Positions 17,405-42,375 of a DNA stretch of 64,000 nucleotides are shown piece by piece. This DNA comes from Microbulbifer agarilyticus. Lineage in GTDB: Bacteria; Pseudomonadota; Gammaproteobacteria; Pseudomonadales; Cellvibrionaceae. The notes below the pieces were generated by a model. The model saw only the letters and a program-made list of their open reading frames with translations, was not told where the DNA came from and searched no databases. The stretch's first letter is position 1. Every line of letters starts with the position of its first letter. The DNA is taken from assembly GCF_001999945.1 (NCBI RefSeq), contig NZ_CP019650.1:3658001-3722000 (forward strand), read 5' to 3'. The position numbers were made by a program, and so were the translations under genes.

Positions 17405-17414
17405 CATCTCACCT

Positions 17415-17510: not shown

Positions 17511-17663
17511 ATGAAATACGCGCCAGGCCACCAAGCACAGCAGGGTTTTCGGCGGATAAACAGGCAAAAAAGCGTGAAGAGCCTCACATAAAACCCAGAT
17601 GCGCAAGGCGTTCTAAACTTGAGCAGATATTTAACCGCGAGTGAGAAAAATCGGGTGAAAAGG

Positions 17664-19702: not shown

Positions 19703-19815
19703 TAACAAGGGTGCAGCCCTTGGGCACAATAGAGAAAATAACCGGAAAGTCTCAGCGAACTCTTTAACGAGAGGCGCCTTGAGACGGCCCGACTGAATTT
19801 CTACAGGTGCCCGCC

Positions 19816-21732
19816 ATGTCCAAGCCCACTCGCCGCCTGGCCGCCAGCCTGATGTTTGCGCTGACATCCACTCTCGTATCGGTTCCCTCCATGGGAATCG
19901 CGCCCACAGCAATTGCCGCCGCGAGCGACCTCACATCAACACCGCAGCTGGAGCGTGCCGAACCGCCGTTCTGGTGGGCGAATATGGCCGAGCCGAGCCT
20001 GCAGCTGATGCTGCACGGCAGCGACCTCGCCGGTGCGGAAGTCAGCCTCGACTACCCGGGCGTAACCGTGATCGGTACCGAGCGCGAACAGAATCCGAAT
20101 TACCTGTTTATCAACTTGTCGGTATCCGCCGATGCCAAGCCCGGCACCCTGCAGATTCAACTGCGCAAGGACGACTGGCAGCAGGCGCTGAGCTATGAGC
20201 TGAAGCAGCGCCGCGCCGGCTCCGCCGAACGCCAGGGCTTCGACTCCAGCGACACCATCTACCTGATTACACCGGACCGCTTCGCCAACGGCGACCCCAG
20301 TAACGACAACACCGCGGATACCAAAGAAGAAGCCAACCGCGCCGACCCGAACGGCCGCCACGGTGGTGACATTGCCGGTATGCAGGCGCACCTCGACTAC
20401 ATCGCCGACATGGGCTTCACCCAGATCTGGCCGAACCCGCTGATCGAGAATGACCAGCCGCAATACTCCTACCACGGCTACTCGGCAACAGACCTCTATC
20501 GCATCGACTCCCGCTATGGCAGCAACGCCAGCTTCCGCACGTTTGTGGCGGCAGCCAAGGAGAAGGGTATTGGCGTTATCCAGGACATGGTGCCCAACCA
20601 TATTGGCGACGGGCACTGGTGGCTCGACGACCTGCCGGCGGACGACTGGCTAAACGGCAAGGGCGTCGCCAAAGGCGAATACGAATACACCAACCATGCG
20701 CGCACCGTGCACATGGACCCCTATGCCAGCCACAAGGACCACCAGCTGTTCACCGATGGCTGGTTTGTGGACACCATGCCGGACCCCAACCAGCGCAACC
20801 CGCGCATGGCCAACTACCTGATCCAGAACGCGATCTGGTGGGTGGAATATGCGGACCTGTCCGGTATTCGTGTAGACACCTATGCGTATTCCGACGCGGA
20901 CTTTCTTACCGATTGGTCCGCGCGCCTGATGCGTGAGTACCCCAAGCTCAACATCGTTGGTGAAGAGTGGACCCGACAGGCGGCCTTGGTAGCCTACTGG
21001 CAGGCGGGCAATAAAAACCGCAACGGTTATGTATCCCACGTGCCGAGCATGATGGATTTCCCCTTGCTCTATGGCCTGCGCGATGGGCTGGAAAAACCGG
21101 AAACCTGGAGCACCGGCCTCGTCACCCTGTACGAATCTCTGGCGAATGACGTGCTCTACCCCGACCCCAACAATCTGGTCATCCTTGCCGGCAACCACGA
21201 CATGAGCCGCATGTATAGCCAGCTGGATGAAGACATGGGCAAGTTCCGCATGGCGGTGGCCTATATCGCCACCATGCGCGGCATCCCGCAGTTCTATTAC
21301 GGCGATGAAATCCTCGCAAAAAGCCCCAAGCACCGCGACGACGGCGTGGTACGCAGTGATTTCCCCGGTGGCTGGGCGGGCGACAAGATCAACGCGTTTA
21401 CCGGTAAAAAGCTGAGCCGTAAACAGCGCGAAGCCCAGCAGTATGTCCGCACCCTGTTTAACTGGCGCAAGCAAAAGGACGTAATCCACAGCGGCAAGCT
21501 CAAGCACTTTGCCCCCATCGACGGGCTCTATGTGTACTTCCGCTATGACGAAAATGAGACGGTGATGGTAGCCATCAACAAGAGCGACCGCGCGCGCGAA
21601 TTGCCGGTTGCGCACATGGCGGAAGTTCTTGGCGATAAAGCCACTGCCACCGACATCACCAGCGGCGAATCACAATCGCTGCAGGAACTGGTACTCGCCC
21701 CGAGCGATGTACTGGTTGCCGAAATATTCTAA
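19816..21732 (+). CDS. Periplasmic cyclomaltodextrinase / neopullulanase-like GH13
   Basis: A 638-residue exported GH13 enzyme: signal peptide about 1-35, an N-terminal Ig-like cyclomaltodextrinase domain (about 45-132), and a catalytic barrel with HGGDIAGMQAHLDYI. Nucleophile Asp354 is in GIRVDTYAY, acid Glu383 in VGEEW, and Asp462 in AGNHD. A C-terminal beta domain follows. The layout is that of SusA/neopullulanase-type cyclomaltodextrinases that open cyclodextrins and cut maltodextrins or pullulan after outer-membrane import. ATG 19816 is preferred over GTG 19807. It heads a three-gene operon with GH31 (41 nt later) and a GH13 lipoprotein (23 nt later). Confidence 0.9.
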   Translation: MSKPTRRLAASLMFALTSTLVSVPSMGIAPTAIAAASDLTSTPQLERAEPPFWWANMAEPSLQLMLHGSDLAGAEVSLDYPGVTVIGTEREQNPNYLFINLSVSADAKPGTLQIQLRKDDWQQALSYELKQRRAGSAERQGFDSSDTIYLITPDRFANGDPSNDNTADTKEEANRADPNGRHGGDIAGMQAHLDYIADMGFTQIWPNPLIENDQPQYSYHGYSATDLYRIDSRYGSNASFRTFVAAAKEKGIGVIQDMVPNHIGDGHWWLDDLPADDWLNGKGVAKGEYEYTNHARTVHMDPYASHKDHQLFTDGWFVDTMPDPNQRNPRMANYLIQNAIWWVEYADLSGIRVDTYAYSDADFLTDWSARLMREYPKLNIVGEEWTRQAALVAYWQAGNKNRNGYVSHVPSMMDFPLLYGLRDGLEKPETWSTGLVTLYESLANDVLYPDPNNLVILAGNHDMSRMYSQLDEDMGKFRMAVAYIATMRGIPQFYYGDEILAKSPKHRDDGVVRSDFPGGWAGDKINAFTGKKLSRKQREAQQYVRTLFNWRKQKDVIHSGKLKHFAPIDGLYVYFRYDENETVMVAINKSDRARELPVAHMAEVLGDKATATDITSGESQSLQELVLAPSDVLVAEIF

Positions 21733-21773
21733 AAAACGACAGTATTGAATCAAAAATACAAGTGAACGCGACG

Positions 21774-24233
21774 ATGAAAGTAGTGAAAAGTAAAAAGTCC
21801 ACAAGGCTGCTCCAAAAACTCGGCCTGAAAACTGTTTTGACAACAGCGCTGGCCGCCGCCCTGCAACCAGCATTTGCGGATACCGCGCGCAGCTATCAGG
21901 AACACAAGCTGTTCGATGACAAGCTGGTTATCGAAACCACCGACAGCCAGGTAACACTGACCCCGCTCAACTCTGGCGCACTGGAAGTGCACTACCAGCG
22001 CGAGGGCATGAAGCAGCTGCCCTCCTTCGCACGCGCACACCAGCAACTGCAGCAAGATGTGCAGGCGGAACTGAATGTTTCCACCGAAGCGCTGCGTTAT
22101 TCCCTTGGCGACATCACCGCGGTGATTCACAAGTCGCCGTTTGCGATCGAATACCTGCACAACGGCAAGCCACTGCTGAGTGAAGAGCACGGTTTCTTCG
22201 CCAACCAGACCATGCGCGGCTTCCGCTTTAACTTGACCGACGATGAGAAACTGATTGGTGGCGGCCAGCGCGTACTGGGTATGGACCGCCGCGGCCATCG
22301 TCTGCCGCTGTACAACAAGGCGCATTACGGCTACTCCACCGAATCCGAGCAGATGTACTTCTCCATGCCGGCGGTGATGAGCAGCAACAAATACGTACTG
22401 CTGTTCGACAACAGCGCCACCGGCACCATGGACCTCGGCGCCAGCGAAGAAAGCGTCATGCAGTTTGAAGCCGTGGGTGGGCGTAGCGCCTACATCGTGG
22501 TGGCGGGTGAAAACTACCCCAAGCTGATCGAAAACTACGTGGACGTTACCGGCCGCCAGCCAATGCCGCCGCGCTGGGCGCTGGGCAACTTCGCCTCGCG
22601 CTTCGGTTACCGCTCAGAGCAGGAAGTACGTGAAACGATTCAAGCCTTCCGCGACGAAGATTTTCCGGTAGACGCGCTGGTACTCGACCTGTTCTGGTTT
22701 GGCCCAGACATCAAAGGCCACATGGGCAACCTGGCGTGGGACAAAGAAAACTTCCCGCAGCCGGTCGAGATGATGGCGGAGCTGAAAGAACAGGGCATTA
22801 AAACCATTCTGGTTACCGAGCCGTTTGTTCTCTCCACCTCTGAACGTTGGGATGAGGCGGTTGCCAGCAATGCACTGGCGAAGAACCTCGCCGGCAAGCC
22901 CAAGCAGTTTGACTTTTACTTCGGCAACACCGGCCTGATCGACGTCTTCTCCGAAGACGGCCGCGATTGGTTCTGGAATATCTACCAAGACCTGAAAGCA
23001 CAGGGCGTTTCTGGCTGGTGGGGCGATCTGGGCGAACCAGAAGTACACCCGTCAGACACCGTGCACGCGATCGGCATGGCCGATGAAATCCACAACGCCT
23101 TCGGCCACCGCTGGGCGCAGATGCTGTTCGAAAACGAAAAAGCCAACAACCCGGACGAGCGCCCCTTCATTATGATGCGCGCCGGTTTCCCGGGCTCCCA
23201 ACGCTACGGCATGATTCCGTGGACCGGCGACGTGTCCCGTGGCTGGGGCGGCCTGCAGCCGCAGGTTGAGCTGTCCCTGCAAATGGGCCTGCTCGGTTTT
23301 GCCTACACCCATTCCGACCTGGGTGGCTTTGCCGATGGCGAGCGCTTTGAGCGCACCCCGTATATTCGCTGGCTGCAGTACGGCACCTTCCAGCCGGTAT
23401 ACCGCCCACACGCGCAGGAAAAAATTGCGCCGGAGCCGGTATTCCACGACCGCAAGACCCGCCGGATTACCCGCGATTTTATCAAGCTGCGTTACCGCCT
23501 GCTGCCGTACAACTACACCCTGGCGTTTGAAAACAGCCAGACCGGTATGCCACTGATGCGCCCTCTGTTCTTCGAGAACGAAAACAATCTCGAGCTGATG
23601 GACAACAAAAGTGCCTACCTGTGGGGTAACGACTTCCTGGTGGCGCCGGTGATGGAAGATACCCGCAAGGTATCCGTAGAACTGCCGGGCGGAATCTGGT
23701 TCGACTACTGGAACGACAATCAGTACGGCGGCGACAAGGCTGAGATCAAGGTGAGCCTGGAAACCATCCCGGTACTGGTGCGCGCCGGTGCGTTCATCCC
23801 CACTGTGGCGGATATGAAAAATACCCAGGAATACACCAGCGAATACCTGCGCCTGGACTACTACGCGCACGAGTCAGTGCAACAGTCCTCCGGCACCGTA
23901 TACGAAGACGATGGTGAGACCGCCGATGCCTTCGCCAAGGGCCAGTACGAAAAACTGCTGTTCAGTGGCGAGCGCAACGAAGCCGGTATCGACTTCACAT
24001 TTACCCGTGAAGGTGACGGCTACACCGGCGCTCCAGAAAGCCGCAATGTAGAGCTGGTACTGCACAACGTAACCCTGCCCGCTGCCATCCAACAGGGCGA
24101 CCAGACCATTGCCCTGGTGAAGCGGGAAAAAGATTTGACCGAGAACACCGCCTGGTACAACAAGCGTGAAAAGACCCTGCACGTGAAGTTCCCGTGGAGT
24201 GGCGCAAGCCAGTCACTGTCGGTTGCCCAGTAA
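21774..24233 (+). CDS. GH31 alpha-glucosidase, periplasmic
   Basis: An 819-residue GH31 enzyme with a signal peptide (about 1-36, ending AFA). The N-terminal beta-sandwich precedes a barrel with the nucleophile Asp418 in GWWGDLGEPE and the acid Asp486 in WTGDVSRGW. The C-terminal domains include DYYAHESVQQSSGTVYEDDG. It should release glucose from the ends of maltodextrins made by the neighbouring enzymes; transglucosylation is possible. ATG 21774 is preferred to GTG 21762, as AAGTGA lies 9 nt upstream. It is the middle gene of the operon. Confidence 0.9.
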   Translation: MKVVKSKKSTRLLQKLGLKTVLTTALAAALQPAFADTARSYQEHKLFDDKLVIETTDSQVTLTPLNSGALEVHYQREGMKQLPSFARAHQQLQQDVQAELNVSTEALRYSLGDITAVIHKSPFAIEYLHNGKPLLSEEHGFFANQTMRGFRFNLTDDEKLIGGGQRVLGMDRRGHRLPLYNKAHYGYSTESEQMYFSMPAVMSSNKYVLLFDNSATGTMDLGASEESVMQFEAVGGRSAYIVVAGENYPKLIENYVDVTGRQPMPPRWALGNFASRFGYRSEQEVRETIQAFRDEDFPVDALVLDLFWFGPDIKGHMGNLAWDKENFPQPVEMMAELKEQGIKTILVTEPFVLSTSERWDEAVASNALAKNLAGKPKQFDFYFGNTGLIDVFSEDGRDWFWNIYQDLKAQGVSGWWGDLGEPEVHPSDTVHAIGMADEIHNAFGHRWAQMLFENEKANNPDERPFIMMRAGFPGSQRYGMIPWTGDVSRGWGGLQPQVELSLQMGLLGFAYTHSDLGGFADGERFERTPYIRWLQYGTFQPVYRPHAQEKIAPEPVFHDRKTRRITRDFIKLRYRLLPYNYTLAFENSQTGMPLMRPLFFENENNLELMDNKSAYLWGNDFLVAPVMEDTRKVSVELPGGIWFDYWNDNQYGGDKAEIKVSLETIPVLVRAGAFIPTVADMKNTQEYTSEYLRLDYYAHESVQQSSGTVYEDDGETADAFAKGQYEKLLFSGERNEAGIDFTFTREGDGYTGAPESRNVELVLHNVTLPAAIQQGDQTIALVKREKDLTENTAWYNKREKTLHVKFPWSGASQSLSVAQ

Positions 24234-24256
24234 ACAAAAAAGCGAATAGAGAGAAG

Positions 24257-26185
24257 ATGAAAAAATTTATTCAGCTCGTACTCGCCTCTTCCGTCGCAGC
24301 GGCCACTCTGAGTGGCTGCGGTGCCAAAATGGAAGAAGTAGAAAGCGCTCAAACCCAGTCCAGCACTGAGGTTGCGCCAGAAGCTACGATAGAAGCACCG
24401 GTAGAAGCTATGTCCGGCAAGCCGGTAATCTATCAGGTGATGACTCGCCTGTTCGGAAACACCAATGCCACCAACAAACCTTGGGGCACCATTGAAGAAA
24501 ATGGCGTGGGCAAGTTCAGCGACTTCACTCCCAAGGCGCTGGAAGAAATTCGCGATCTGGGTGCGGACTACATCTGGTACACCGGTGCACTGCACCACGC
24601 GGTGGTCCGCGACTACACCGAATTCGGCATCGCCAATGACGACCCGGATGTGGTGAAAGGCCGTGCCGGCTCCCCCTACGCGATCAAGGATTACTACTCG
24701 GTAAACCCGGACCTCGCCAACGACCCGAGCAAGCGCCTGGAAGAATTCAAAGCGCTACTGGAACGCTCTCACGCCGCTGGCCTCAAGGTCATCATTGATA
24801 TCGTACCCAACCACGTTGCGCGTAATTACCAGTCTCTGGACAAGCCGGAAGGTGTTATCGACTTCGGTGCGGACGACGACAGCAGCGTAGCCTACGCGCG
24901 CGACAACAATTTCTACTATGTGCCCGGCGAGCCTTTCCAGGTACCGGTGGCCACCGACGGCTACCAGCCGCTTAACGGTGAAACCCACGATCTGGTCGAT
25001 GGCACGTTTGAAGAAGTACCGGCCAAGTGGACCGGCAACGGCAGCCGCGCCCCGCAACCTGAGCAGGGCGACTGGTACGAAACCGTGAAGATCAACTTCG
25101 GTGTGCGCCCGGACGGCAGCTACGATTTCGCGCAACTGCCAGCAGGCTATGCCGAGAAAGATTTCCGTGCGCACGCGGCTTTCTGGGCGGAACAAGAAAT
25201 TCCGGATAGCTGGAAGAAGTTCCGCCAGATCACCGATTACTGGCTCGCCTTCGGCGTCGACGGTTTCCGCTATGACATGTCCGGCATGGTGCCGGTGGAG
25301 TTCTGGAGCTACCTGAACTCCAGCATCAAAATGCAGAAAGCCGACGCGCTGCTGCTGGCGGAAATCTACCAGCCCAAGCTGTACCGGGATTACATCCACC
25401 TGGGCAAGATGGACTACCTGTATGACAAGGTAGGCACCTACGATGCCATTCGTGCGGTAATGGAAGGCAAGGCCGGCACCGATCCGCTGGTGGAGATTCA
25501 GGAAAGCCTGAGCGGTATTGAAGCCAATATGCTGCGCTTTATGGAAAACCACGACGAGCAGCGCATTGCCTCGCCGGAATTTGCCGGCAACCCGCAGGCA
25601 GGCATCCCCGCCATGGTAGTTTCCGCTACCGTGAGCGGTGCGCCGACGCTGATTTACTTCGGTCAGGAACTGGGCGAGCCGGGCGACGGCGACGCGGGCT
25701 TCGGCAAAACCAGCCGTACCACCATCTTCGACTACTGGTCTGTACCCAGCATCCGTCGCTGGCACAACGATGGCCAGTTCAACAGTGAGCAACTGGCCGA
25801 AGGCGAACAGTCCCTGCGCGACTTCTACCGCACCCTACTGACCTTCAGCAGCCAGAGCGACGCCCTCTCCGGTGAGTACCAGGACCTGCACCGCTACAAC
25901 CGTGAGCAGGGTGAAAACTACTCCGACAAGCTGTACAGCTTTGCCCGTTGGGCCGGTGATGATCGCCTGCTGGTGGTTGCTAACTTCGCCGGTAGCGACA
26001 GCGCGGTGAACCTGGCTCTGCCGTCTGACCTGATCAAGCAGTGGCAACTGGCTCCGGGTAAGTACACCCTTACCAACCAGTTACAAGAAGGTACTGCGGA
26101 ACTGGTGGTTGCCGACGACCTCAGCGCTTCCGCCGCCCTGACTGCGCCTCAGCTATCCGGTCAAATCCTCAAGCTCGAGCACTGA
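24257..26185 (+). CDS. GH13 alpha-amylase-family lipoprotein
   Basis: A 642-residue lipoprotein: the lipobox TLSGC puts the lipidated Cys at 21, followed by a Glu/Gln/Thr-rich linker (25-52). The GH13 barrel has DIVPNH, nucleophile Asp340 (DGFRYDMSG), acid Glu369 (LLLAEIYQP) and Asp433 (MENHDEQR). The insert between about 200 and 300 is long. It should be anchored in the outer membrane and cut maltodextrins, with the exact product unknown. The frame from 24194 that overlaps GH31 lacks the signal; ATG 24257 has GAGAGAAG just upstream. Last gene of the operon. Confidence 0.88.
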   Translation: MKKFIQLVLASSVAAATLSGCGAKMEEVESAQTQSSTEVAPEATIEAPVEAMSGKPVIYQVMTRLFGNTNATNKPWGTIEENGVGKFSDFTPKALEEIRDLGADYIWYTGALHHAVVRDYTEFGIANDDPDVVKGRAGSPYAIKDYYSVNPDLANDPSKRLEEFKALLERSHAAGLKVIIDIVPNHVARNYQSLDKPEGVIDFGADDDSSVAYARDNNFYYVPGEPFQVPVATDGYQPLNGETHDLVDGTFEEVPAKWTGNGSRAPQPEQGDWYETVKINFGVRPDGSYDFAQLPAGYAEKDFRAHAAFWAEQEIPDSWKKFRQITDYWLAFGVDGFRYDMSGMVPVEFWSYLNSSIKMQKADALLLAEIYQPKLYRDYIHLGKMDYLYDKVGTYDAIRAVMEGKAGTDPLVEIQESLSGIEANMLRFMENHDEQRIASPEFAGNPQAGIPAMVVSATVSGAPTLIYFGQELGEPGDGDAGFGKTSRTTIFDYWSVPSIRRWHNDGQFNSEQLAEGEQSLRDFYRTLLTFSSQSDALSGEYQDLHRYNREQGENYSDKLYSFARWAGDDRLLVVANFAGSDSAVNLALPSDLIKQWQLAPGKYTLTNQLQEGTAELVVADDLSASAALTAPQLSGQILKLEH

Positions 26186-27246: not shown

Positions 27247-27278
27247 AAAAAAAGCCCCGAATATTCGGGGCTTTTTTT
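27247..27278. terminator. Bidirectional intrinsic terminator
   Basis: Seven A, then the palindromic stem AGCCCCGAATATTCGGGGCT, then seven T. It lies between the convergent DUF3014 (+) and DUF1552 (-) genes. Confidence 0.92.
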
Positions 27279-27299: not shown

Positions 27300-28742
27300 T
27301 TACACAACCCCACCAGACCAGTGGCTTTCCGGCAAATTGGTCGCACCCATATAGCGGGCCACATCGCCAAACAACTGATGCGTGCCATAAATGCGCTGAC
27401 CGTTGTTGACCCCGTCACCACAATTGATGATACGGCCCATTTGCAGGGCGCCACCGGCACCACCGGCGAGGGTTACCGCACCGGCTGCACCACCGTGCTT
27501 CGAGCCATCGCCAACTTCTGAGAACATCACCACCAGGGTGTCATCCAGCAAGCCGCTGTTTTCGAGCTGCTGCAAGGTGTAGGCGAGCAGACTGTGATAC
27601 CAGCGCACCTGTGCGGTGTGCGGCACATCACCCGGGCGATGCGAGGCACTGTGGCTGGCAAATTCGTTGTACCAGCGGGTAATGGAACCAACGGTACCAC
27701 TACCATTACTGTGTTGAATACCCTGGCTAATGGCGTCCTGTGACATTTGCCAGCACTCGTCGAACGAATAGTTCACCAGATTGCCGTTCTCATCCCCTTT
27801 AGAGAGCTGCAGGGTGGCGACCCGGTTCAGGCCACAGGAGAACGCACCCACAATGTTATCGATTTGCGCGCGCGCCAAGTGCGGGAACATTTGCCATTCG
27901 TTGGGCGTTAGCTGGCCCGAGGAACTGGCATACGGGTCGCTCATCACATTGGTGTTGAAGCTGCACTCGCCTACCTGATTGCCGGCGAGATCCCGCAAAC
28001 GCTTCAGTGCATTTTCATGCAGTGTGAGTTTGTCGCGGCGGGCGCTATCGAGAGTGACTTCCGCAAGGCCATCGAAGTCGTTGAGAATCGCTTCGTAATA
28101 GGCCTGCTTGTCGCCGCTGCTGCCGCCAGAGCTACTGCCACCGGAACTACTGCCGCCACCGCTAATACCCACGGCAAGTTTCTGCGCGGCATCCGCCGGG
28201 TCGTTATTCGGAATCGGGCGGGCGCCGCTATCGTAACCGCGCGGCTTGGAGATCATGATGTCGGAGCGGCCGCCGGTGCGTACGCCGAGGCTCAATACAC
28301 CCTCGCTGCCCAACTGCTCCGCAATCAAGTGATCGATACTGGCGCTTTCGCGGCTGATTTCATTGTTACCGGTAAGAATGCCGCGCATATCGTTGTAGTG
28401 GGCTCCGGCACCGCTACCGATATCCAGCGTCATGTTCTGCAGCACGATCATGCGATCGTGCCAGGAAGACAGCGGCCCCAAGCCAAAGCTCAGCTCCTGG
28501 CTACCACTAATGGCGCCCGGGCCCTGTTGTGGCACCCAGTTGTAGGGCACCACACCGTTGGGATAGTAGAGGAACAGTACGCGCTGCGCAGAGCCCGTAT
28601 TCGCAAATACCCGCTGCCCGAGCATGCTGCCAGCCACAGGCAACAGCATGCCGGCCTGTGCCAGGTTGCGCAGGAACTTGCGGCGCGACTGACTGGTGGA
28701 TTCCTTTACGGAAGCAAAACCAAGTTTATTCAGCAGTTTCAT
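27300..28742 (-). CDS. Tat-exported DUF1552 protein
   Basis: A 480-residue protein with a twin-arginine signal SRRKFLRNLAQAG (residues 19-31), so it is folded in the cytosol before export, which is usual for cofactor proteins. The body matches DUF1552 (VLFLYYPNGVVPYNWVP; GAHYNDMRGILTG; later TLVVMFSEVGDGSKHGGAAG), a family distantly like sulfatase/DUF1501 alkaline-phosphatase folds. It nearly always accompanies DUF1592/1588/1585 cytochromes. A Ser/Gly linker lies at 194-210. It starts 18 nt after the large redox gene stops and is co-transcribed with it. Activity is unknown; it is presumably the partner of that protein. Confidence 0.85.
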   Translation of the reverse strand: MKLLNKLGFASVKESTSQSRRKFLRNLAQAGMLLPVAGSMLGQRVFANTGSAQRVLFLYYPNGVVPYNWVPQQGPGAISGSQELSFGLGPLSSWHDRMIVLQNMTLDIGSGAGAHYNDMRGILTGNNEISRESASIDHLIAEQLGSEGVLSLGVRTGGRSDIMISKPRGYDSGARPIPNNDPADAAQKLAVGISGGGSSSGGSSSGGSSGDKQAYYEAILNDFDGLAEVTLDSARRDKLTLHENALKRLRDLAGNQVGECSFNTNVMSDPYASSSGQLTPNEWQMFPHLARAQIDNIVGAFSCGLNRVATLQLSKGDENGNLVNYSFDECWQMSQDAISQGIQHSNGSGTVGSITRWYNEFASHSASHRPGDVPHTAQVRWYHSLLAYTLQQLENSGLLDDTLVVMFSEVGDGSKHGGAAGAVTLAGGAGGALQMGRIINCGDGVNNGQRIYGTHQLFGDVARYMGATNLPESHWSGGVV

Positions 28743-28760
28743 TGTTGTTATCTCCCGAAT

Positions 28761-31700
28761 TTAGCGACGCAGAGTGAAGGCGTCAGACAGAACCAGCGTA
28801 CGCAACATGTCGCGCATGCCACCGCCATTGCGCAGGTCTTCACTGACCGCGTGGATGATCAGGTCATCACTTGTGCCCTCTTCGCGTCCGACCACGTAGC
28901 GGTAGAACTGACGCGCAAAGCAGGCTTCGCCCTGATCACTGCTGGCGATCAGTGATGCCAGCTCCGGTACGGAGTAGAAGTCGTAGCTTTCGCTCGCGGG
29001 GTCTAGCACCGTAGCCGCGCTGTACAGGCTCTTGATGCTGCCGCTATCGTCAATTTCGCGCTGCTCACCGGTACCGATGGTTTCGATGGTGCGATACAGG
29101 GCATCACTACCGAAACGCTCGAAGCCGAAGCCAACACCGTCAATAAACTGGTGACAGGCAGCACAGGCCGGATCCGAGGTATGCCGTGCAGTGGCTTCCC
29201 GGTTGCTGTCGCTGTCTTCAAACACCACGTTGAAGTCGGCGGCCGCAGGTGGCGGGAATTCCTGACACATCAGCACCTCGCGCACGTAAACACCACGCTT
29301 GATCGGCGCTGGGTTTACGGTGCTGGTACGGGAAGCGAGGAAGCTGCCGTGACCCAGCAGGCCAGTGCCACTGCGCGCATCACCGTTAGGGAAGTTGCGA
29401 ATAGACCAGTCACCATTGGTATTTTCCAACCCATAGTGCGCGGCCAGTTCACCGTTCGCCCAGGTGTAATTCGCGGAGAGCAACTCACTGAATGCGTTGT
29501 TGCCGCGAATATTGTCCAGCACGAAGCCTACCGTCTCTTCTTTGAATGCCGAAATCAGATCCGCACTGCTAATCGCCGGGAATGGATACTGATTGTTGAT
29601 CAGCCAACCGGAGATAAAGCGGCGCAGCCCGCGTTCCGCACGTGGGTCTGCCAGCAGACGGTCTACCTGCGCGGCTACATCAAAGTTTGCATCGCTCGCA
29701 GCCAGCAACAGGGTGTCGTCTGGTGTGGTTACCCAGAATGTGTAGGAAAGCAAGGTCGCGATTTCGTAGTTGTTCAGGCGGTACAACCCGGTCGCACCAT
29801 CCAGTTCACCCAACTCGGAACGGTACATAAAGTACGGCGACATCAGCATGGCCTGAACTACCAGACGGCCATCGTCCTCACTGGTGTACAAGCCGGTGTA
29901 ACGATCGATTTCCTGAGTCGTCAGCGGACGACGGAACAGGCGGAAGCCAAGTGTGTCGACCACACATCGGTTATCGCCACAGCCATCAATCAAGCTGTTG
30001 AAGCCGAACTGGGAAACCGCCATGTCGGCAACCTGCTCGGAAACCTGCTCGTACCCCAGGGTGCGGTCGTTGCCGGCTGTGAGGAAGGAGGCGGTGTCGA
30101 AGTTGCGGAACAAGCCGTCTGCCGGCACCGGCCCCATCACAGACTCATCGAAAGCGATACCGAAGACGTCGCTGACACTGTTGAGGTATTCCTCACGGGT
30201 CAGCAGACGCATGTTACGCGCATCGAGGTTACTGCCATCGCAGTCGTTGCCGGAACAACTACTCGTGCTCCAGGCTTCGTCCACGATCAGGCGAGCCGTT
30301 TCATAGGCACAGGCACCAGGCTGATCGCCCGCACAACTGGCGGTGGCGTCCATCGGCATGAAGTCTTCGATGTACTGCGTGAGTACATTGAGATCCCAAT
30401 TGCTGCCGGTACCTGCCAGAGCCGGTGCTACATCGCCCTGCCCCTGATCGCCGTGACAGTTTGCACACTGGGCCGCGTAGAAATTCTGCCCGGCCTCGTA
30501 GTCGTTGTTGCTGCTCGGGAAGAGTGCAACCAGCGACAGGTCGTGCTGCGGAATCAGCAGTTGCACCTGAGGCTGCGATGGATCACCCACGATATAGGGC
30601 GCCGCATCGCCACTCCAGCCACCGAATTCGGTGCCCAAAGGAGCCGCATCTGCGTTCACGGTAATCACACTGCCGATTGCATAATCCCGCTCGCCATCGG
30701 CCGTGGTACCACCAATCACTGACACTCGTGAGGTGTCACCGCCCACTGGCGCTTCGGGAACCCACGGTTCCCAGGCACCGCCGACAAAACTGGAGGACTC
30801 ATTGATGTTGCGCTGGTCACCGGTCTGCTGACCGTTGCCGCTGTTAAACACCAGATTGACTTCACCATTTTCCAGATCAGCTTCGTCTACTGAATGGCTC
30901 CACCAACCTTCCGCATCGGGGCCCGACATCAACAGCCCGGGCCATTGAGTAAGCCCCTGGTCCTGGCCATTCACGGTCACCCAGAGGTGGACAAATACCT
31001 GCTCCCATCCTTCCGGGTTGTCGTAACGGACAGCAATACCATTGAAGCCTTCTTCCAGAGTGGCCGTTGCGGTGAACTCACCCAACACGGCTTGCACCGT
31101 AACCGCGCCCTGTGCATTACGGGTAACCAGGCCACTTTGATCAATCGTCGCCGGGCCGCTGGTCACAGACCATGCAACCTGCCCGAATACATTTGCGCGC
31201 GTACCGTCGGCACGTACGCCGTAGGCAACCAGCTGGCGACTGCTATCAAGGGCGACATTGCCCGGGGCGATTTCCAGCTTGGTAATGCTGACTTCAATAC
31301 CCGTGACTTCGACGTTCAGAGTTTCGGTAAATCCACCCTGCTGCACGGTAATCGTCGCGGTGCCATTTTCGGTAGTGCCAGCACGCAACACGATAGCGCT
31401 TTGGTTCACCGACTCGACCGCTACGATGGACGAATTGCTTGAAGTCACACTCGGAGCAACATCCACCGGTACGGTAAAGCCGTTGTCGTACAGCGCCAGA
31501 ACATCGACACTCAATGCATCGCCCGCATTAAGGCGATTGTCATCAGCGTTCACCACGATACCAACCTGCTGCGCGTTGACACTGTCGATCCAATTACGGA
31601 ACAGAGCCTCTGCCACCGGGTTGGTGTACAGGGTGCCCTTCGGCATGCGGTTGTTATCGGTGGTCTGATAGATGTAGACCAGACTGCTGGCGTGATCGAA

Positions 31701-34418
31701 CGGACGCAGGCGTGCGGCACCACCAGTGGTCTCTACGTTCACCAGGCGCATCTCGCCCAGTGGCGTATCGTATTGCAGATCCATAAATCCGCTGGCATGA
31801 CAGTGCGAACAGTTGGTGTCCAGATAGGTACGCGCACGCTCGTCCAGATCGGCACTGGTATCTTCCGCATCAACAAAGCTGCCATGGGTATCGGCACCAC
31901 CAATGTTTTGCGTAAACAGTGCGATGTTGTTGAACACATCCAGCTGGTTAGCGATGGTTTCTGCACCTTCGCCGTACTGGAAGTTTTTGTTCAGCTGGCG
32001 AGTATGTACCGCCAGGGGCTCGCGACTGCCACTTCCGATGTGGCAGGATCCGCAGTCGGCGGCAGACTGCACGGCCCTCTGACGGTTCTCAATACCGCCG
32101 TCCATCACTGTGAGTGATTCAGTAACCAGATCAGCGTCGCTACCGTCGCTGTTCCAGTAATAGTTTGCAGCCTGCCAATTACCGGTGTCCTGTCGGAACA
32201 ACACAGACGTGGTAAATGGCTTGGCTGGGTTACCTGCGGTAGCAATACTCTGGTGTTTTACCAGTACCGAGCCGATCGGCAGGTCCCAGTTATTGGTACC
32301 GTCGAACGTGATCTGGCTGTCGTTCGGCAGGGCAATAAAGTGACGGGTATCGGAGCCGTCAAACCAGCCATCGGTGTTCAGATCGTATTCCAGTACGCCA
32401 GTAACCGGCACCAGGTTTTGCACATCGGCGAACAAACCGGTTGCAGAAAGTGTTGCCGGGATCACCGCGCTTTGCGCATCGTCATCGACGACTTTGTAGA
32501 TCGTCGATTGACCGCCGTACTCCACACCGTATGTGGAGACCAACAATGTCTCACCACTCAGATCGGTGCCAAACGAGGCGATATTTTCCGGGAAAGCTTC
32601 GCTGATTAATTCCTTGGCTTCGCCGTCGACAATCGACCAGATGCGCTTGGTAACGTAGTCCCCGAAGACAAACCGACCACTCAGGCCTGGCAACGAATTT
32701 CCGCGATACACCACGCCGCCGATAATGGAGTAACCGGTGGGGTGAGCGTAACCATCGCGCGGCGGCTCGAAATCAGTGCTACAGTTTTTCGCCGGGTCGC
32801 CGCCAAGGTCACCACGGTTGTTGGTGCCTTCACATACCGGCCAGCCGTAGTTCTTCCCTTTTTCAATCAGGTTAACTTCTTCGAAGCCCGCCTGGCCGAC
32901 TTCGGTTTCCCACATGGTGTACGGCGCCTCGGTATCGAAGCTCCAGCGCCATGGGTTGCGGTGGCCGTAAGACCAGATTTCTTCGCGGAATCCGGGCACG
33001 CCGACAAACGGGTTATCTGCGGGGATTTCGTAGTACTTTCCATCCACCGGCTGTGCCAGTGGCTTGATGCGAATGAAGGCACCGAGAAGGTTATCGGTTT
33101 CCTGTGCACCGTTATTGGTACGCGGATCTTCCGGGTAACTCATGGTGGCACTGTGGCCGTAGGCACCGTCACCAACACCGAGGTAAAGATTATTGTCCTC
33201 GGGGTGGAACTGCATCATGCCACCTTTATGGTCCGGGCCACGCTGCGGGATACGCAGGATTTCCACATTGGAGTTGGCAACCACCTGAGTCGGGTTGCTG
33301 GGGTTATCTACTGTCCAGCGTGCGAGGATCGCGTCGCCGTAGCTACCATCCGGGGCGCGTTCGTTATCGTCGGTGCCGTGGATGTAGTAAATATAAATAT
33401 ACCCATTGCTGGCGTAGTTGGGGTCAAACGCCATGCTAAGCAGGCCCTGCTCGTGGTAGTTGCGCACCTCATTGTCGATGTTCAACAGGGTGTTCACTTC
33501 GGCGGGCGCCACATTTTCCCGGTTCGGGAAAATGAAAATGGAACCAGATTTATCCACCACGTACATGGAATCGTTAATGCCATCGGAAATCACCATCACC
33601 GGGGACATAAACTGACCCTGAAGATTCGGGTAGGCGATTTCGAAACGGTAACTACCGCCGGTGACATTACCGGTAATCGGGAAATTCAGCGGCTGTTCCA
33701 ACAATGGACGCGTGGTAGGCGGCAGATCGACGACCGGCTCTGAATCGAGCCCACAGGCATCTGCAGTCATCCACTGGTTCTGGACGTAGCAGGGGTTGCC
33801 ATCGTAGGTGAGGTCTGTGGTTTGCGGTGCACCGTTGTTATTAAAAATAACGCTCAGTGATTCCGGCATCACACCGCCATTCAGGTGGGGTGTAAAGTCG
33901 TAACAGAAGTACTCACCGGAAGCCGTCATCGCATTGCCAGGCCAACCCGGCAAATTATTCACACTACCACCCGGCTGCGGGTTCCAGAAATAGATATGCG
34001 GGTCGGCATAGTTTTGCGGATTGTCGAAGCAAATACTCGCGGGCGAGTTCTCCGGCTGCTGCTCGACCACCTCGGTTACGGTGATCGCTTTACTGGCATC
34101 ATTGAAAGTGATGCGATAGCGGCCATTGGTAACCTGATAATCATTATCTGGGTACGCTTCGTCCCAGTTCTGATAGTGGCTGATTTTAAAACGCGGGTTC
34201 GCGGCATCAAAGGTCTGCTCTGTGAACCAGACACCTTCTCCTGCATCGTATTCCATGGCCGTGGTACCCCAGTTATTCGGGGTGCCGCGGAACCAGGCTT
34301 CAGACCAGGTTTGCGCGCTCGCGCTCAACGGGAAAAGCAATGCCAGCGCGAAAAAAACACGCAGACAAACGCTAGCAACGGAGTGTGGCACTCCGGCTGT
34401 ACTCGGGATAGAAATCAT
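28761..34418 (-). CDS. Giant exported starch-binding-like PQQ-dehydrogenase/multi-haem DUF1592 fusion protein
   Basis: A 1,885-residue protein; signal peptide about 1-36. Modules in order: RGTPNNW module like those of the amylase (37-117); starch-binding-like module with HIYFWNP (128-223); glucose/sorbosone-dehydrogenase beta-propeller (255-645: RGPDHKGGMMQFH, SYGHRNPWRWSFD, NYGWPVCEG); a di-haem segment with CGSCH (789) and CSHCH (870); Ig-like repeat (1045-1120); a second starch-binding-like module (1127-1220); InlB-like repeat (1230-1300); haem motif CANCH (1318). A DUF1587/1595/1592/1588/1585 chain (1400-1885) follows, with CAACH (1752). It would bind alpha-glucan and pass electrons outside the cell; the reaction is inferred. 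ATG 34418 has GGAG 7 nt upstream. Confidence 0.8.
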   Translation of the reverse strand: MISIPSTAGVPHSVASVCLRVFFALALLFPLSASAQTWSEAWFRGTPNNWGTTAMEYDAGEGVWFTEQTFDAANPRFKISHYQNWDEAYPDNDYQVTNGRYRITFNDASKAITVTEVVEQQPENSPASICFDNPQNYADPHIYFWNPQPGGSVNNLPGWPGNAMTASGEYFCYDFTPHLNGGVMPESLSVIFNNNGAPQTTDLTYDGNPCYVQNQWMTADACGLDSEPVVDLPPTTRPLLEQPLNFPITGNVTGGSYRFEIAYPNLQGQFMSPVMVISDGINDSMYVVDKSGSIFIFPNRENVAPAEVNTLLNIDNEVRNYHEQGLLSMAFDPNYASNGYIYIYYIHGTDDNERAPDGSYGDAILARWTVDNPSNPTQVVANSNVEILRIPQRGPDHKGGMMQFHPEDNNLYLGVGDGAYGHSATMSYPEDPRTNNGAQETDNLLGAFIRIKPLAQPVDGKYYEIPADNPFVGVPGFREEIWSYGHRNPWRWSFDTEAPYTMWETEVGQAGFEEVNLIEKGKNYGWPVCEGTNNRGDLGGDPAKNCSTDFEPPRDGYAHPTGYSIIGGVVYRGNSLPGLSGRFVFGDYVTKRIWSIVDGEAKELISEAFPENIASFGTDLSGETLLVSTYGVEYGGQSTIYKVVDDDAQSAVIPATLSATGLFADVQNLVPVTGVLEYDLNTDGWFDGSDTRHFIALPNDSQITFDGTNNWDLPIGSVLVKHQSIATAGNPAKPFTTSVLFRQDTGNWQAANYYWNSDGSDADLVTESLTVMDGGIENRQRAVQSAADCGSCHIGSGSREPLAVHTRQLNKNFQYGEGAETIANQLDVFNNIALFTQNIGGADTHGSFVDAEDTSADLDERARTYLDTNCSHCHASGFMDLQYDTPLGEMRLVNVETTGGAARLRPFDHASSLVYIYQTTDNNRMPKGTLYTNPVAEALFRNWIDSVNAQQVGIVVNADDNRLNAGDALSVDVLALYDNGFTVPVDVAPSVTSSNSSIVAVESVNQSAIVLRAGTTENGTATITVQQGGFTETLNVEVTGIEVSITKLEIAPGNVALDSSRQLVAYGVRADGTRANVFGQVAWSVTSGPATIDQSGLVTRNAQGAVTVQAVLGEFTATATLEEGFNGIAVRYDNPEGWEQVFVHLWVTVNGQDQGLTQWPGLLMSGPDAEGWWSHSVDEADLENGEVNLVFNSGNGQQTGDQRNINESSSFVGGAWEPWVPEAPVGGDTSRVSVIGGTTADGERDYAIGSVITVNADAAPLGTEFGGWSGDAAPYIVGDPSQPQVQLLIPQHDLSLVALFPSSNNDYEAGQNFYAAQCANCHGDQGQGDVAPALAGTGSNWDLNVLTQYIEDFMPMDATASCAGDQPGACAYETARLIVDEAWSTSSCSGNDCDGSNLDARNMRLLTREEYLNSVSDVFGIAFDESVMGPVPADGLFRNFDTASFLTAGNDRTLGYEQVSEQVADMAVSQFGFNSLIDGCGDNRCVVDTLGFRLFRRPLTTQEIDRYTGLYTSEDDGRLVVQAMLMSPYFMYRSELGELDGATGLYRLNNYEIATLLSYTFWVTTPDDTLLLAASDANFDVAAQVDRLLADPRAERGLRRFISGWLINNQYPFPAISSADLISAFKEETVGFVLDNIRGNNAFSELLSANYTWANGELAAHYGLENTNGDWSIRNFPNGDARSGTGLLGHGSFLASRTSTVNPAPIKRGVYVREVLMCQEFPPPAAADFNVVFEDSDSNREATARHTSDPACAACHQFIDGVGFGFERFGSDALYRTIETIGTGEQREIDDSGSIKSLYSAATVLDPASESYDFYSVPELASLIASSDQGEACFARQFYRYVVGREEGTSDDLIIHAVSEDLRNGGGMRDMLRTLVLSDAFTLRR

Positions 34419-34431
34419 CGCTGTGCTCCGG

Positions 34432-34448
34432 GAGTTATTTTTATCCGG
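34432..34448 (-). promoter_or_regulatory. Leader element shared with the amylase
   Basis: GAGTTATTTTTATCCGG on the + strand is identical to 17415-17431 and occupies the same place, just upstream of the ribosome site. The surrounding gap 34419-34762 also holds the operator-like element at 34565 and the terminator at 34642. Confidence 0.5.
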
Positions 34449-34564
34449 ACAACCGTCATGCTTTTGCACGCGGTTTTTATTATTTTGCTGACGACCTCTC
34501 AGCATGTTTTTTACGCCCTGTTTTGGGGCGAGTGTTTACGTTACTCCCTTTTTACAGAGCCTTT

Positions 34565-34586
34565 CCTCCTCCCCCCCGGGGCGTAG
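34565..34586 (-). promoter_or_regulatory. Putative alpha-glucan operator (motif copy C) upstream of the redox gene
   Basis: CCTCCTCCC-N4-GGGGCGTAG on the + strand: 8 of 9 positions in the left half and 9 of 9 in the right half match the copy at 36597. The spacer is 4 instead of 5. It lies about 150 bp before the start codon. Confidence 0.55.
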
Positions 34587-34641: not shown

Positions 34642-34675
34642 AAAAAAAAGCCGATATCAGAATACTGATACCGGC
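34642..34675 (-). terminator. Intrinsic terminator of the GH13 lipoprotein gene
   Basis: On the minus strand GCCGGTATCAG pairs with CTGATATCGGC (one mismatch) across a 4-nt loop and is followed by eight T. It separates the upstream GH13 gene from the redox gene promoter. Confidence 0.85.
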
Positions 34676-34762: not shown

Positions 34763-36529
34763 TTAACGCGCACTCACCTGGCTGGTTTGACTTTCGCCCA
34801 ACAATAAAATATCGAATGCGGTATCAAATTTCAGCTCACCATTTTCGACAACGGCTTCACTGCCAGAGTAGTAATCTTTTACCACTGCGCCTTCGGCAAA
34901 TACGTCAGCAGCTTTTACGCTCTTCGCACCGGCCGGCATATCGATAGCAACCATCACGCGATCACTCTCGCCACCATTGTGTGCCAGCGTACGTGAGAAA
35001 ATATAAGGGGCTTCGTTCAGCTTTTTGTGCACACCTGCACCCACCGCCAAATGCGACTGACGGAACTGACCGAGCTTTTTCCAGTGGCTCAGGATTTCGC
35101 TGGTTTCACTCTGTTGAATGCTGTTCCAGTCCATCGGTACCCGCATGGATGCGTCGCCGTAAGCCTGCTCATCAATCATCGGCCGAGCGATTTCATCACC
35201 GTAGTAAATCTGTGCGCCACCTGGCGCGAGCATCAGTTTCAGCGCAGCGCTTTTCACCTGCTTGCGCTCGCGGTCAAACGAGTGGTGATCATCGTGGGAA
35301 CCCAGATAGTTCAACACGGCAACACCATCCAGCTCACCACCGTGCAGAGTGCTGGAGTAGCCACTGAAGATACTTTCCATATCCTGGGAGGCGTGAGCGG
35401 CGAAGCCCATGTTGATCAGGCTATCGAAACCGTGGTTGAAGAAATCGACCTTACGATCACCGAAGTTGTAGTAACGACCTTCACTGTTGGCGAAATTATT
35501 TACGCCGAAATGGAAAACCTCACCGACCATGAAGAATTCACGATCGTCCAGTTTGTTTTCTGGATTGGTTTCCTTCCACTCAGCCAGCGCCAAGCTCGCT
35601 TCTTTCTTCAGTACGTTCCAGATCTCGGGCTCAACGTGCTTTACGGTATCTACACGGAAGCCAGCCACACCGTATTCACGCACCCAGTCGGTCAACCATT
35701 TAACGATGTAGTACTTGGGCGCACGCGGATAGCCAGTGCGATCAAAGAAGGCATCCAGCTCAGCCACTTCCTGATCCAGGCGACCTTCGCGCTGCCACTT
35801 TTCGGTGAGCTGCGGTGGCAGGTCGACCGGCTCTTCGCTCTCGGTCAGAATATCTGGGAGGTTGTCGGTCAGTGCACAGGTAACGTTCTGGGCAAAGCTG
35901 CTCCAATCACACTGCGGGTTGGTACGTACCCAGTCGGAAGGCCACAGCGGATCTTCGCTGGTCACCGGGCCGGTGTGGTTGATGATCACATCCATAAAGA
36001 TGCGCACACCTTTGCTGCGCGCTTTGGCGATCAGCTCGGCCAGCTCTTCTTCGGTACCGAAGTTGGCATCTACGGTGGTCCAGTCCTTCGGCCAGTAGCC
36101 GTGGAACGCGTAGGTGCGCTTGTCACCCTCGTCGTAGCCGTGCACGTTCTCGATGATCGGAGACATCCAGATGGCATCGACACCCAAGTCGGTGAAGTAA
36201 CCCTCTTCCAGCTTCTGGATTACACCGCGCAGGTCACCACCGTGGAAACCGCGCAGATGGGCGGCATCGCCTTTACGGCTGTAGGACAGGTCGTTGTCCG
36301 GGTTACCGTTGTGGAAACGGTCCGGCAGCATGAAATAGATGGTCGCGTTGTTCCAGAACGGATCGGTGGCCGCGCTCTTGTCGCTGGCCGGCTCCGCCTT
36401 GGCTACATTCTGTGCGGCCGGAGCGGCATCAGAAGCGCTCTGTACGGATTCGACGTCGCTGTCGGTACATCCGCTCATAGTCAGGGCCGCCGCTGAAATA
36501 AAGGCCGCCAAACTGGTCATTTTTCTCAT
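34763..36529 (-). CDS. GH13 alpha-amylase-family lipoprotein
   Basis: A 588-residue lipoprotein: lipobox TMSGC (Cys21), an Ala/Ser/Asp-rich linker to about 55, then a compact GH13 barrel. HGGDLRGVIQKLE and DVIINH are followed by nucleophile Asp294 (FRVDTVKHVEPE), acid Glu337 (VGEVF) and Asp413 (LGSHDDH). It should be surface or periplasm-facing and cut maltodextrins. ATG 36529 has GGAGG 7 nt upstream. It is the third separate amylase-type enzyme of the region and has the clearest operator copy in its promoter (36597). A strong terminator follows, so it is monocistronic. Confidence 0.9.
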   Translation of the reverse strand: MRKMTSLAAFISAAALTMSGCTDSDVESVQSASDAAPAAQNVAKAEPASDKSAATDPFWNNATIYFMLPDRFHNGNPDNDLSYSRKGDAAHLRGFHGGDLRGVIQKLEEGYFTDLGVDAIWMSPIIENVHGYDEGDKRTYAFHGYWPKDWTTVDANFGTEEELAELIAKARSKGVRIFMDVIINHTGPVTSEDPLWPSDWVRTNPQCDWSSFAQNVTCALTDNLPDILTESEEPVDLPPQLTEKWQREGRLDQEVAELDAFFDRTGYPRAPKYYIVKWLTDWVREYGVAGFRVDTVKHVEPEIWNVLKKEASLALAEWKETNPENKLDDREFFMVGEVFHFGVNNFANSEGRYYNFGDRKVDFFNHGFDSLINMGFAAHASQDMESIFSGYSSTLHGGELDGVAVLNYLGSHDDHHSFDRERKQVKSAALKLMLAPGGAQIYYGDEIARPMIDEQAYGDASMRVPMDWNSIQQSETSEILSHWKKLGQFRQSHLAVGAGVHKKLNEAPYIFSRTLAHNGGESDRVMVAIDMPAGAKSVKAADVFAEGAVVKDYYSGSEAVVENGELKFDTAFDILLLGESQTSQVSAR

Positions 36530-36596: not shown

Positions 36597-36619
36597 CATC
36601 CTCCCGGGGCGGGGCGTAG
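36597..36619 (-). promoter_or_regulatory. Putative alpha-glucan operator (motif copy D, reference copy)
   Basis: CATCCTCCC-GGGGC-GGGGCGTAG on the + strand, about 70 bp upstream of the GH13 lipoprotein start. It is framed by TTCATC on the left and GATGAA on the right, an inverted repeat that suggests a dimeric regulator. It is compared with copies at 1634, 17488, 34565 and (weaker) 42222 and 43972. Confidence 0.6.
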
Positions 36620-37694: not shown

Positions 37695-39197
37695 TTACAA
37701 AGAAGCCAAGAAGTCGTCGTGATCGGCAAGCTGCTTTACTGTTCCCTGGATCAAGGTCTGCAAGCTTTCCATCAAATCAGTCAGCTGACTATCGCTAAGC
37801 CCATCAGCAATTACATGGTGGTCCTCAGGCATTACACCCTGCCCAATAAGTACTTGCTGCCACGCCACCTCGGTAAATAAATCGTCGAAATCCCGAAACG
37901 CCTTCCCGGACCTGCGGAACAGCTCCATTTTCTCATGCAGGGAGTCCGGAACCGCCATTTCCTCGCACTGCCGCCAGAACTCACTGTCGCGACGCTGATT
38001 AGCCTTGTAATGCAGAATGATAAAATCGCGAATGCGCTCAATTTCCACCTGGGACTGACGATTGTATTCCGCAACCTCTTCCGCACGAATTCCTCGATGC
38101 GGGAAGCATTTTATCAGCCGGGTAGCTGCAGTCTGAATCATATGGATACTGGTGGACTCCAGCGGCTCCAGGAACCCGCTGGAAAGTCCAATCGCCACCA
38201 CATTCTTGCGCCACGCCTCACGCCGGCGACCGGTACGGAAACGAATAACTTTCGGATCTGCGAGGGGTTCCGCATCGAGATTGGACATGAGAACTTCGCG
38301 CGCCTGCTCATCTGTCCAGTGGCGACTGGAATACACCAGACCATTACCCGTGCGATGCTGCAGCGGTATCCGCCACTGCCACCCGGCTTCATGCGCAATC
38401 GACCGCGTATAAGGGACAATGGGTTTTACCAGCGCGCTGGGTACCGCCTGCGCACGGTCACACGGCAGCCAATGGGACCAGTCGTCATAGCCAACCCCCA
38501 ATGCTTTGTGAATCAGCAGTGCAGCCATACCGGTGCAGTCGACAAAGAGGTCACCCGGTACTTCACGGCCACCTTCCAGTACTAACTTTTCGACGTAGCC
38601 GCTTTCAGGGTTGAGTTTGACTTCATCTACGGTCCCCTCAATACGCGTAACACCCTTACTCTCCGCGTACTTGCGCAGAAACTGGGCATATAGCCCTGCA
38701 TCAAAATGATAGGCGTATGAAATGCCCGGGAGGTTAGTACCTTTGATCTGACCCAGGGGCGAGAACTTGTTGTTTTTTGCAGCCTGGTAATTCAGGGAGT
38801 AATCCCAGAGACTTTCCGTTCCGCCATTCTGGCGATGACGTACCCAAAAATGGTGAAAATCACAAAAGGGAAAGTTCTTCCCGATAGTGCCAAAGGCGTG
38901 CATGTAGCTATCGCCTCGCTTCAACCAGTTTTCAAACTGGATGCCCAGTTTGATAGTACCCTTGGTTTCACGCAGGAACTCTTTCTCGTCTAAACCGAGT
39001 GCCTGGTTAAAGTTAATGATTGGCGGGATCGTGGCTTCACCAACGCCGACTGTACCAATCTTGTCTGACTCGACGAGAGTAATGTTAATTGACTTGCCAA
39101 GCACCTTGCACATTAGCGCGGCCGTAATCCAGCCGGCTGTACCGCCACCTAAGATAACCAGATTTTTTACTACTTTGTTATTCACGTTATTTCGCAA
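37695..39197 (-). CDS. Tryptophan-halogenase-like FAD-dependent protein (copy 1)
   Basis: A roughly 500-residue flavoprotein. The FAD dinucleotide motif is GGGTAGW near residue 18. The segment TIKLGIQFENW carries the Lys equivalent to the catalytic Lys79 of PrnA, GWQWRIP is the family WxWxIP motif, and GFLEPLESTSIHMIQ carries the conserved Glu. All halogenase residues I can check are present. Such genes commonly follow TonB receptors in polysaccharide loci of Caulobacter, Xanthomonas and alteromonads, where their role is not known. It follows the receptor gene after a terminator. The start is uncertain: TTG 39197 or GTG 39185, neither with a good ribosome site. Confidence 0.8.
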   Translation of the reverse strand: MRNNVNNKVVKNLVILGGGTAGWITAALMCKVLGKSINITLVESDKIGTVGVGEATIPPIINFNQALGLDEKEFLRETKGTIKLGIQFENWLKRGDSYMHAFGTIGKNFPFCDFHHFWVRHRQNGGTESLWDYSLNYQAAKNNKFSPLGQIKGTNLPGISYAYHFDAGLYAQFLRKYAESKGVTRIEGTVDEVKLNPESGYVEKLVLEGGREVPGDLFVDCTGMAALLIHKALGVGYDDWSHWLPCDRAQAVPSALVKPIVPYTRSIAHEAGWQWRIPLQHRTGNGLVYSSRHWTDEQAREVLMSNLDAEPLADPKVIRFRTGRRREAWRKNVVAIGLSSGFLEPLESTSIHMIQTAATRLIKCFPHRGIRAEEVAEYNRQSQVEIERIRDFIILHYKANQRRDSEFWRQCEEMAVPDSLHEKMELFRRSGKAFRDFDDLFTEVAWQQVLIGQGVMPEDHHVIADGLSDSQLTDLMESLQTLIQGTVKQLADHDDFLASL

Positions 39198-42289: not shown

Positions 42290-42375
42290 AGATCACCATC
42301 GAGGCGGGGATTATACGGGGCGTACAAAAAATGTTCAGCCCCAGATGAGCAAATATAAAGGCAAATACGCTCAGA

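Follow-up and report, generated by a model that had tools for sequence, protein, structure and literature searches.

The gene pair and its modules

The DNA analysed here, referred to as the window, is a stretch of 64,000 nucleotides from Microbulbifer agarilyticus (contig NZ_CP019650.1), and its subject is a pair of adjacent genes on the minus strand. The first, called here the main gene, codes for a large protein with starch-binding-type modules, a propeller and several haem motifs, and the second, which begins 18 nt downstream (gap 28743-28760), for a protein of the DUF1552 family. The main open reading frame (ORF) spans 28761-34505 and gives 1914 amino acids from its first ATG, the count used for all residue numbers below. 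Met30 (34418) is the likelier start: judged by eye, it has a Sec-type signal as well as a Shine-Dalgarno-like CGGAG. It gives the 1,885-residue chain of an original prediction made from the letters of the sequence. Coordinates are collected in Table 1.

The module order, computed directly from Pfam and NCBIfam matches, starts with a weak X25-like module, a carbohydrate-binding module of family 26 (CBM26), a glucose/sorbosone dehydrogenase (GSDH)-type propeller, an SO2930-type dihaem domain, a Big_2-like stretch marginally under its cut-off, and a second CBM26. These are followed (Pfam) by cytochrome c, DUF1587, DUF1595, DUF1592, DUF1588 and DUF1585. The original prediction had counted two or three starch-binding-like modules; the two CBM26 stretches exceed the cut-off with 109 bits together, and the genome has no other CBM26 match. 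The third, N-terminal module reaches 18.2 bits against a cut-off of 27 for pullulanase X25. The propeller was confirmed. The DUF series is present as foreseen, with DUF1595 as a further member, and the dihaem domain had been overlooked. Its TIGR03806 match (148 bits, E 3e-43) is under the model's 313-bit cut-off and covers nearly the whole model (positions 2-313 of 314), and both of its CxxCH motifs are invariant in a 23-row alignment. The chain holds four CxxCH motifs (residues 818, 899, 1347 and 1781), in keeping with the multi-haem character first proposed.

Residues 1335-1910 correspond to X183-X132 of Cbp2D from Cellvibrio japonicus, because two adjacent genes of that species (G404, locus L160) agree with Cbp2D and Cbp2E in size and domains as published (PMC12542752, PMC8981238; the papers cited in this text are used as far as their text was accessible). 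One is an ORF of 1122 aa from its Met with CBM2, YceI, cytochrome and the DUF series, and the gene preceding it codes for 350 aa from the second Met, with CBM2 and YceI. A published figure legend puts DUF1587 in Cbp2D (PMC8981238), and the Pfam series of the X132 block is identical in Cbp2D. An ORF like TERTU_3803 of Teredinibacter turnerae (L176, architecture SGL-GSDH-CBM2-cyt-PSD) has the same series minus DUF1585. The X183 region also matches the solved TtX183A structure 8q1v, and the X183 and X132 haem motifs are invariant in 27 aligned rows. Judged from its sequence, the main protein is a member of the CBM-linked X183-X132 class: X183, X132 and a CBM were all found.

The partner scores 133.8 bits with DUF1552 (PF07586) against a gathering cut-off of 30 and contains no CxxCH. 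Its N-terminus carries SRRKFL, which is Tat-like by eye and, beside the Sec-type signal of the main protein, is consistent with the export proposed earlier. The HXXSHH motif is incomplete (HSASHR), with HxxSH retained and the last His replaced by Arg.

Table 1. Features of the locus, in window coordinates; residues follow the 1914-aa ORF.
Feature	Position	Strand	Basis
Main gene, exported CBM26/GSDH/SO2930-dihaem/CBM26/X183/X132 protein, 1885 aa (predicted)	28761..34418	-	Pfam and NCBIfam matches; start by Shine-Dalgarno-like CGGAG
N-terminal module, weak pullulanase X25 match, residues 81-137	34095..34265	-	Pfam, E 0.0026, below cut-off
CBM26 no. 1, residues 158-233	33807..34034	-	Pfam, best CBM26 stretch
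GSDH-type propeller, about residues 283-677 (Pfam 312-626, E 2e-41)	32475..33659	-	His426, Arg516, Asn517 kept; RxR lost
SO2930-type dihaem domain, residues 683-975, CxxCH 818 and 899	31581..32459	-	TIGR03806 (NCBIfam)
CBM26 no. 2, about residues 1159-1231	30813..31031	-	Profile match
X183-type cytochrome c, residues 1335-1385, CxxCH 1347	30351..30503	-	Pfam cytochrome c, X183 comparison
X132 block DUF1587, 1595, 1592, 1588, 1585, residues 1433-1910, CxxCH 1781	28776..30209	-	Pfam
DUF1552 partner, 480 aa, Tat-like N-terminus, HSASHR at HXXSHH motif	27300..28742	-	Pfam PF07586
GH13 alpha-amylase-type gene directly upstream of main gene	34763..36529	-	Domain match
Cyclomaltodextrinase-type GH13, GH31, further GH13	19807..26185	+	Domain matches
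TACGCCCCG word upstream of main gene	34577..34585	-	Word scan of 64 kb
Terminator-like hairpin between upstream GH13 gene and main gene	34650..34675	-	Hairpin scan
Terminator-like hairpin after DUF1552	27247..27278	-	Hairpin scan

Pairing of X132 with DUF1552 and exchange of modules

The nearest named protein to the main protein is from Microbulbifer agarilyticus (98%). Full-length relatives were counted manually in 31 of the 144 genomes of the window's GTDB family, with one more split over contigs; an automatic tally of 88/144 at E <= 1e-30 also counts propeller-only or X132-only proteins. In an order-wide sample of 390 genomes, nine had a match at E <= 1e-150, all of them in the same GTDB family.

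The DUF1552 gene had been described as a constant partner, and at the loci examined it lies directly after X132. Counted directly, it is the next gene after X132, with the same orientation, in 26/26 fetched loci of the main-protein family (drawn from 26 of the 31 carriers, the window being among the remaining five) and in 8/8 other X132 loci, and it stands directly after X132 in all 20 loci hand-picked from the list of DUF1552 matches. C. japonicus encodes three DUF1588 proteins, and each of its three X132 genes, cbp2D included, has DUF1552 next, as do the three X132 genes of a T. turnerae-like genome; the window's genome has one copy of each. At L160 (6390-11047) a gap of roughly 50 nt, estimated by eye, separates cbp2D from the start of the DUF1552 gene, and no mention of DUF1552 was found in the papers searched on Cbp2D, supplements not being covered. 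Beside propeller-dihaem proteins that lack X132, DUF1552 was absent (2/2 loci). Distances of X132 and DUF1552 are correlated over 60 pairs (r 0.92, 0/2000 permutations as high); as proof of contact between the two this was dropped, being expected of neighbours inherited together.

X132 falls into two deep types (117 rows). Because these are intermixed on the propeller-dihaem tree, the tree supports at least four exchanges of X132 on a CBM26-propeller scaffold that is itself conserved. Six changes of X132 type are needed on this tree, at least four of them forced by branches with a Shimodaira-Hasegawa-like approximate likelihood ratio (SH-aLRT) of 95 or more; its 46 rows were hand-picked to span both types, and it was built by a quick method with no bootstrap. 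Among the 26 loci that have the two genes together, DUF1552 type matches X132 type throughout (17 + 9), so that DUF1552 may travel with X132, as suggested by about one switch in this set. In the Cellvibrio clade the identity to the window is 56-61% for propeller-dihaem, 35-36% for X132 and 29-30% for DUF1552, values from alignments with part of the nine loci (the scores cover all nine). A joint replacement of X132 and DUF1552 in this clade, which these values suggested, was considered and rejected; few-outgroup trees of both group the 26 loci together.

The front of the chain is variable: YceI in Cbp2D, SGL-GSDH in TERTU_3803, GSDH-dihaem in the main protein and none in P0095, for which constancy is read from the chain, its DUF1552 neighbour being outside the comparison. 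In P0095 and P0097, CBM26, cytochrome and X132 are present and a GSDH match is absent, and the propeller thus appears dispensable in these relatives. P0026 and P0050 have a GH13 domain on the same chain, as does P0032 by its listed Pfam. A further Microbulbifer-genus locus (L142, G478) codes for two CBM2, a GSDH propeller, cytochrome and DUF1587-1595-1592-1588, with DUF1552 next, and is a cellulose-type counterpart of the main gene pair.

Starch setting and proposed role

The starch setting originally described was recovered, with the pair among GH13 and GH31 (glycoside hydrolase) genes. Four GH13 genes lie nearby (14456-17587, 19807-21732, 24194-26185 and 34763-36529), with GH31, TonB receptors, tryptophan-halogenase-type genes, glucokinase, an AraC-type regulator, and then GH3 and GH16. 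The GH3 and GH16 genes (45301-49609), both with an Exop_C domain, likely form a beta-glucan cluster adjoining the starch cluster. Three tryptophan-halogenase-type flavoproteins (37695-39197, 49777-51261 and 52301-53887) lie in the starch and beta-glucan clusters of the window, near TonB receptor/cupin genes. Across the 26 loci, GH13 or GH31 was found within a 20-kb stretch in 13 (eight Microbulbifer-genus loci, L125, L127, L130, L134 and L140), a lower bound, the Pfam scan having covered 20 neighbour proteins.

Because terminator-like hairpins flank them, the main gene and DUF1552 look like one two-gene unit, with the hairpin scan as a whole near chance (11 in the region, shuffle mean 9.6). 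The promoter scan gave one site, below the shuffle mean of 5.1, and the tRNA and Rfam scans gave no match. The regulatory claims of the original prediction, an operator-like motif and a 17-nt leader in common with the amylase, were borne out in part. The word TACGCCCCG occurs three times in the 64 kb, each time upstream of a same-strand gene (further copies on the minus strand at 36610-36618 before GH13 and at 42316-42324 before a TonB-dependent receptor), where 0.63 is expected and three were reached in 2/100 shuffles; it is a candidate operator. CTACGCCCC lies upstream of the main gene in 5/8 Microbulbifer relatives. The 17-nt leader was not found among exact words, inexact matches not being tested, and the longest exact word that the main gene has in common with any one of four GH13 5' regions is 12 nt.

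The reading we favour, with about even confidence, is that of a starch-anchored electron-transfer protein, a starch-directed member of the CBM-linked X183-X132 class whose working unit would be X132 together with DUF1552. The two CBM26 would hold the exported chain on alpha-glucan, and four putative c-type haem sites (two in the SO2930-type domain behind the propeller, one in X183, one in X132) would carry electrons. X132 and the separately exported DUF1552 protein are proposed as the constant working unit because CBM, X183, X132 and DUF1552 stay constant while the front module varies; propeller and dihaem domain would be an attached input or output module, missing in some relatives. Most likely, electrons would be exchanged between X132/DUF1552 and some component at the starch surface. 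The X132/DUF1552 unit may oxidise or reduce starch or products derived from it and so help the neighbouring amylases. Many saprophytes have DUF1587-1592-1588-1585 proteins and DUF1552, to which no function has been assigned. Since the window's species has single copies and its genome has no LPMO_10 match, and the pair sits in a starch cluster, its role could be tested without redundancy.

Several observations weigh against this reading. Haem attachment, starch binding, location, activity and electron path are all read from genes. Neither GH13 nor GH31 was seen near the gene in the other 13 of the 26 loci, where not every gene was scanned; eight of the 13 positive loci belong to one genus, and the GH31 of two other positive loci may have another specificity. 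One locus (L128) has an extra 203-aa DUF1552 piece (16821-17429, 319 bits) about 3 kb past an intact pair and without an adjoining X132, and another (L184) has a faint 21-bit X132 match without DUF1552. The closest published relative, Cbp26A of C. japonicus, is very probably P0008 (L125), an identification that rests on its name prefix, its build and the single CBM26 Cbp of the paper; C. japonicus also has a 4012-residue RHS/teneurin-like ORF with four CBM26 (L199, 344-12379), an unusual setting for such modules. The reported rise of cbp26A on starch speaks for the starch link, but its induction is not specific to starch: the gene is raised on mannan and xyloglucan as well as starch relative to glucose, is among nine cbp genes raised on cellulose (PMC12542752), and is raised on fungal necromass (PMC11497827). 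It is not named in the main text of a starch RNA-seq paper (PMC10714805).

A bolder and only tentative proposal is that X132 and DUF1552 form a redox enzyme, so far unrecognised, whose direct attack on polysaccharides needs neither a lytic polysaccharide monooxygenase (LPMO) nor pyrroloquinoline quinone (PQQ). The CBM would pick the polymer (CBM26 for starch, CBM2/10 for cellulose), and the propeller-dihaem part, with a non-PQQ cofactor, would be one of several exchangeable electron sources or sinks. If so, the window would encode a bacterial complex for oxidative attack on starch, and the cellulose system would have its missing third part in the DUF1552 gene next to cbp2D.

In the original prediction the propeller acts as a PQQ-dependent sugar dehydrogenase: it oxidises maltodextrin reducing ends, and the haems relay the electrons to the respiratory chain or other enzymes. 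This now seems unlikely. The His and the Arg-Asn pair, which we take to be the catalytic residues of PQQ sugar dehydrogenases, are retained in 117/117 aligned rows, but the C-terminal RxR, which presumably holds the PQQ carboxylates, is lost in all 117, while YliI of E. coli and two paralogues in the window's genome, both ordinary GSDHs (L082, L085), keep it; the prediction had itself staked sugar oxidation on the PQQ ligands. The best structural match of the propeller is hedgehog-interacting protein, which is not known to bind PQQ. PqqE is over its cut-off in 0/31 carrier genomes and in 12/143 genomes of the GTDB family, weaker radical-SAM matches to it appearing in all 14 controls too. A homologous SGL-GSDH construct of TERTU_3803 has been reported to show neither PQQ binding nor glucose dehydrogenase activity (PMC10916295). 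Because the catalytic-type residues are invariant, the propeller might use another cofactor or substrate. RxR is missing as well from GSDH-dihaem proteins without X132 (L150, L151), so that PQQ may not be the cofactor of every protein that bears the name PQQ sugar dehydrogenase.

The main protein could instead donate electrons to a starch-active LPMO, as X183 of Cbp2D can to Lpmo10B, an idea we consider quite improbable. Neither the window's genome nor those of its two nearest carriers (G269, G448) match LPMO_10, yet all three retain the main gene, which makes transfer to an AA10 LPMO unlikely in M. agarilyticus, and the only starch-active LPMOs known to us are fungal AA13, a family not searched for here. 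In its favour, 28/31 carrier genomes have an LPMO_10 match, and X183 of Cbp2D can start LPMO reduction in vitro (PMC8981238, PMC12542752); against it, growth on filter paper was hurt more by deletion of cbp2E than of lpmo10B (PMC12542752). Just as doubtful is a DUF1552 hydrolase of the alkaline phosphatase/sulfatase fold, which the haem protein would mainly display on starch with redox secondary. A faint DUF1501 match (Pfam, E 0.02), sub-significant sulfatase matches (best E 0.23) and the HxxSH core, invariant in 18/18 aligned rows, point this way, but the fold matches are not significant, starch lacks sulfate, and the invariant X183 and X132 haem motifs speak for redox. Least probable is a non-catalytic starch-binding scaffold whose haem domains only deliver electrons to acceptors outside the cell, for instance iron oxides: the large multi-haem chain and the general induction on several polysaccharides would suit it, but the invariant active-site-type residues of the propeller, the tight X132-DUF1552 pairing and the amylase fusion in some relatives argue otherwise.

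Relation to known systems

Polysaccharide-targeted redox proteins are a class that is little understood and known mainly from cellulose. The original prediction had spoken of a new system, a description that does not hold, as Cbp2D and TERTU_3803, of the same build, have already been described (PMC12542752, PMC8981238, PMC10916295). A literature search for a starch-binding multihaem CBM26 sugar dehydrogenase in Microbulbifer found none, supplements not being covered. Cbp26A (P0008) is 63% identical over 89% of the query and has the same Pfam families, with DUF1552 directly downstream; it differs in its 2277 aa, extra CBM26-like stretches and Ser-rich linkers, and its scanned neighbours are GH31 and two TonB receptors. 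Cbp2D, encoded with Cbp2E, has X183, X132, a substrate CBM and DUF1552 as the next gene in common with the main protein, whereas its CBM2 is for cellulose and YceI replaces the propeller and dihaem domain. Cbp2D and Cbp2E are currently modelled as a heterodimer that cuts cellulose; a DUF1552 gene follows cbp2D. TERTU_3803 has a GSDH propeller (inside a pf08450-X173 construct), X183, X132 and DUF1552 next, as in the main protein; it differs in CBM10/CBM2, SGL and X122 domains (X122 according to PMC10916295), and no SO2930 dihaem domain was seen in it.

More distant systems share single parts. Fusions of GSDH with TIGR03806/SO2930 (L150 by NCBIfam, L151 by alignment) have the propeller and dihaem domain, likewise without RxR, but neither X132 nor DUF1552. 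PQQ dehydrogenases (sGDH, Asd, AA12) have the GSDH-type propeller fold in common with the main protein, in which their RxR pair is lost. In PSCyt/PSD proteins of Verrucomicrobia, the PSCyt3 series adjoins one partner family and some members have CBMs, but no CBM26 or propeller is described and the partner family is unnamed in the text of PMC5615132, where DUF1552 occurs three times. New here are DUF1552 directly after X132 (26, 8 and 20 loci) and after cbp2D, the apparent exchange of X132 on a CBM26-propeller scaffold, the relatives fused to GH13 and the relatives without a propeller.

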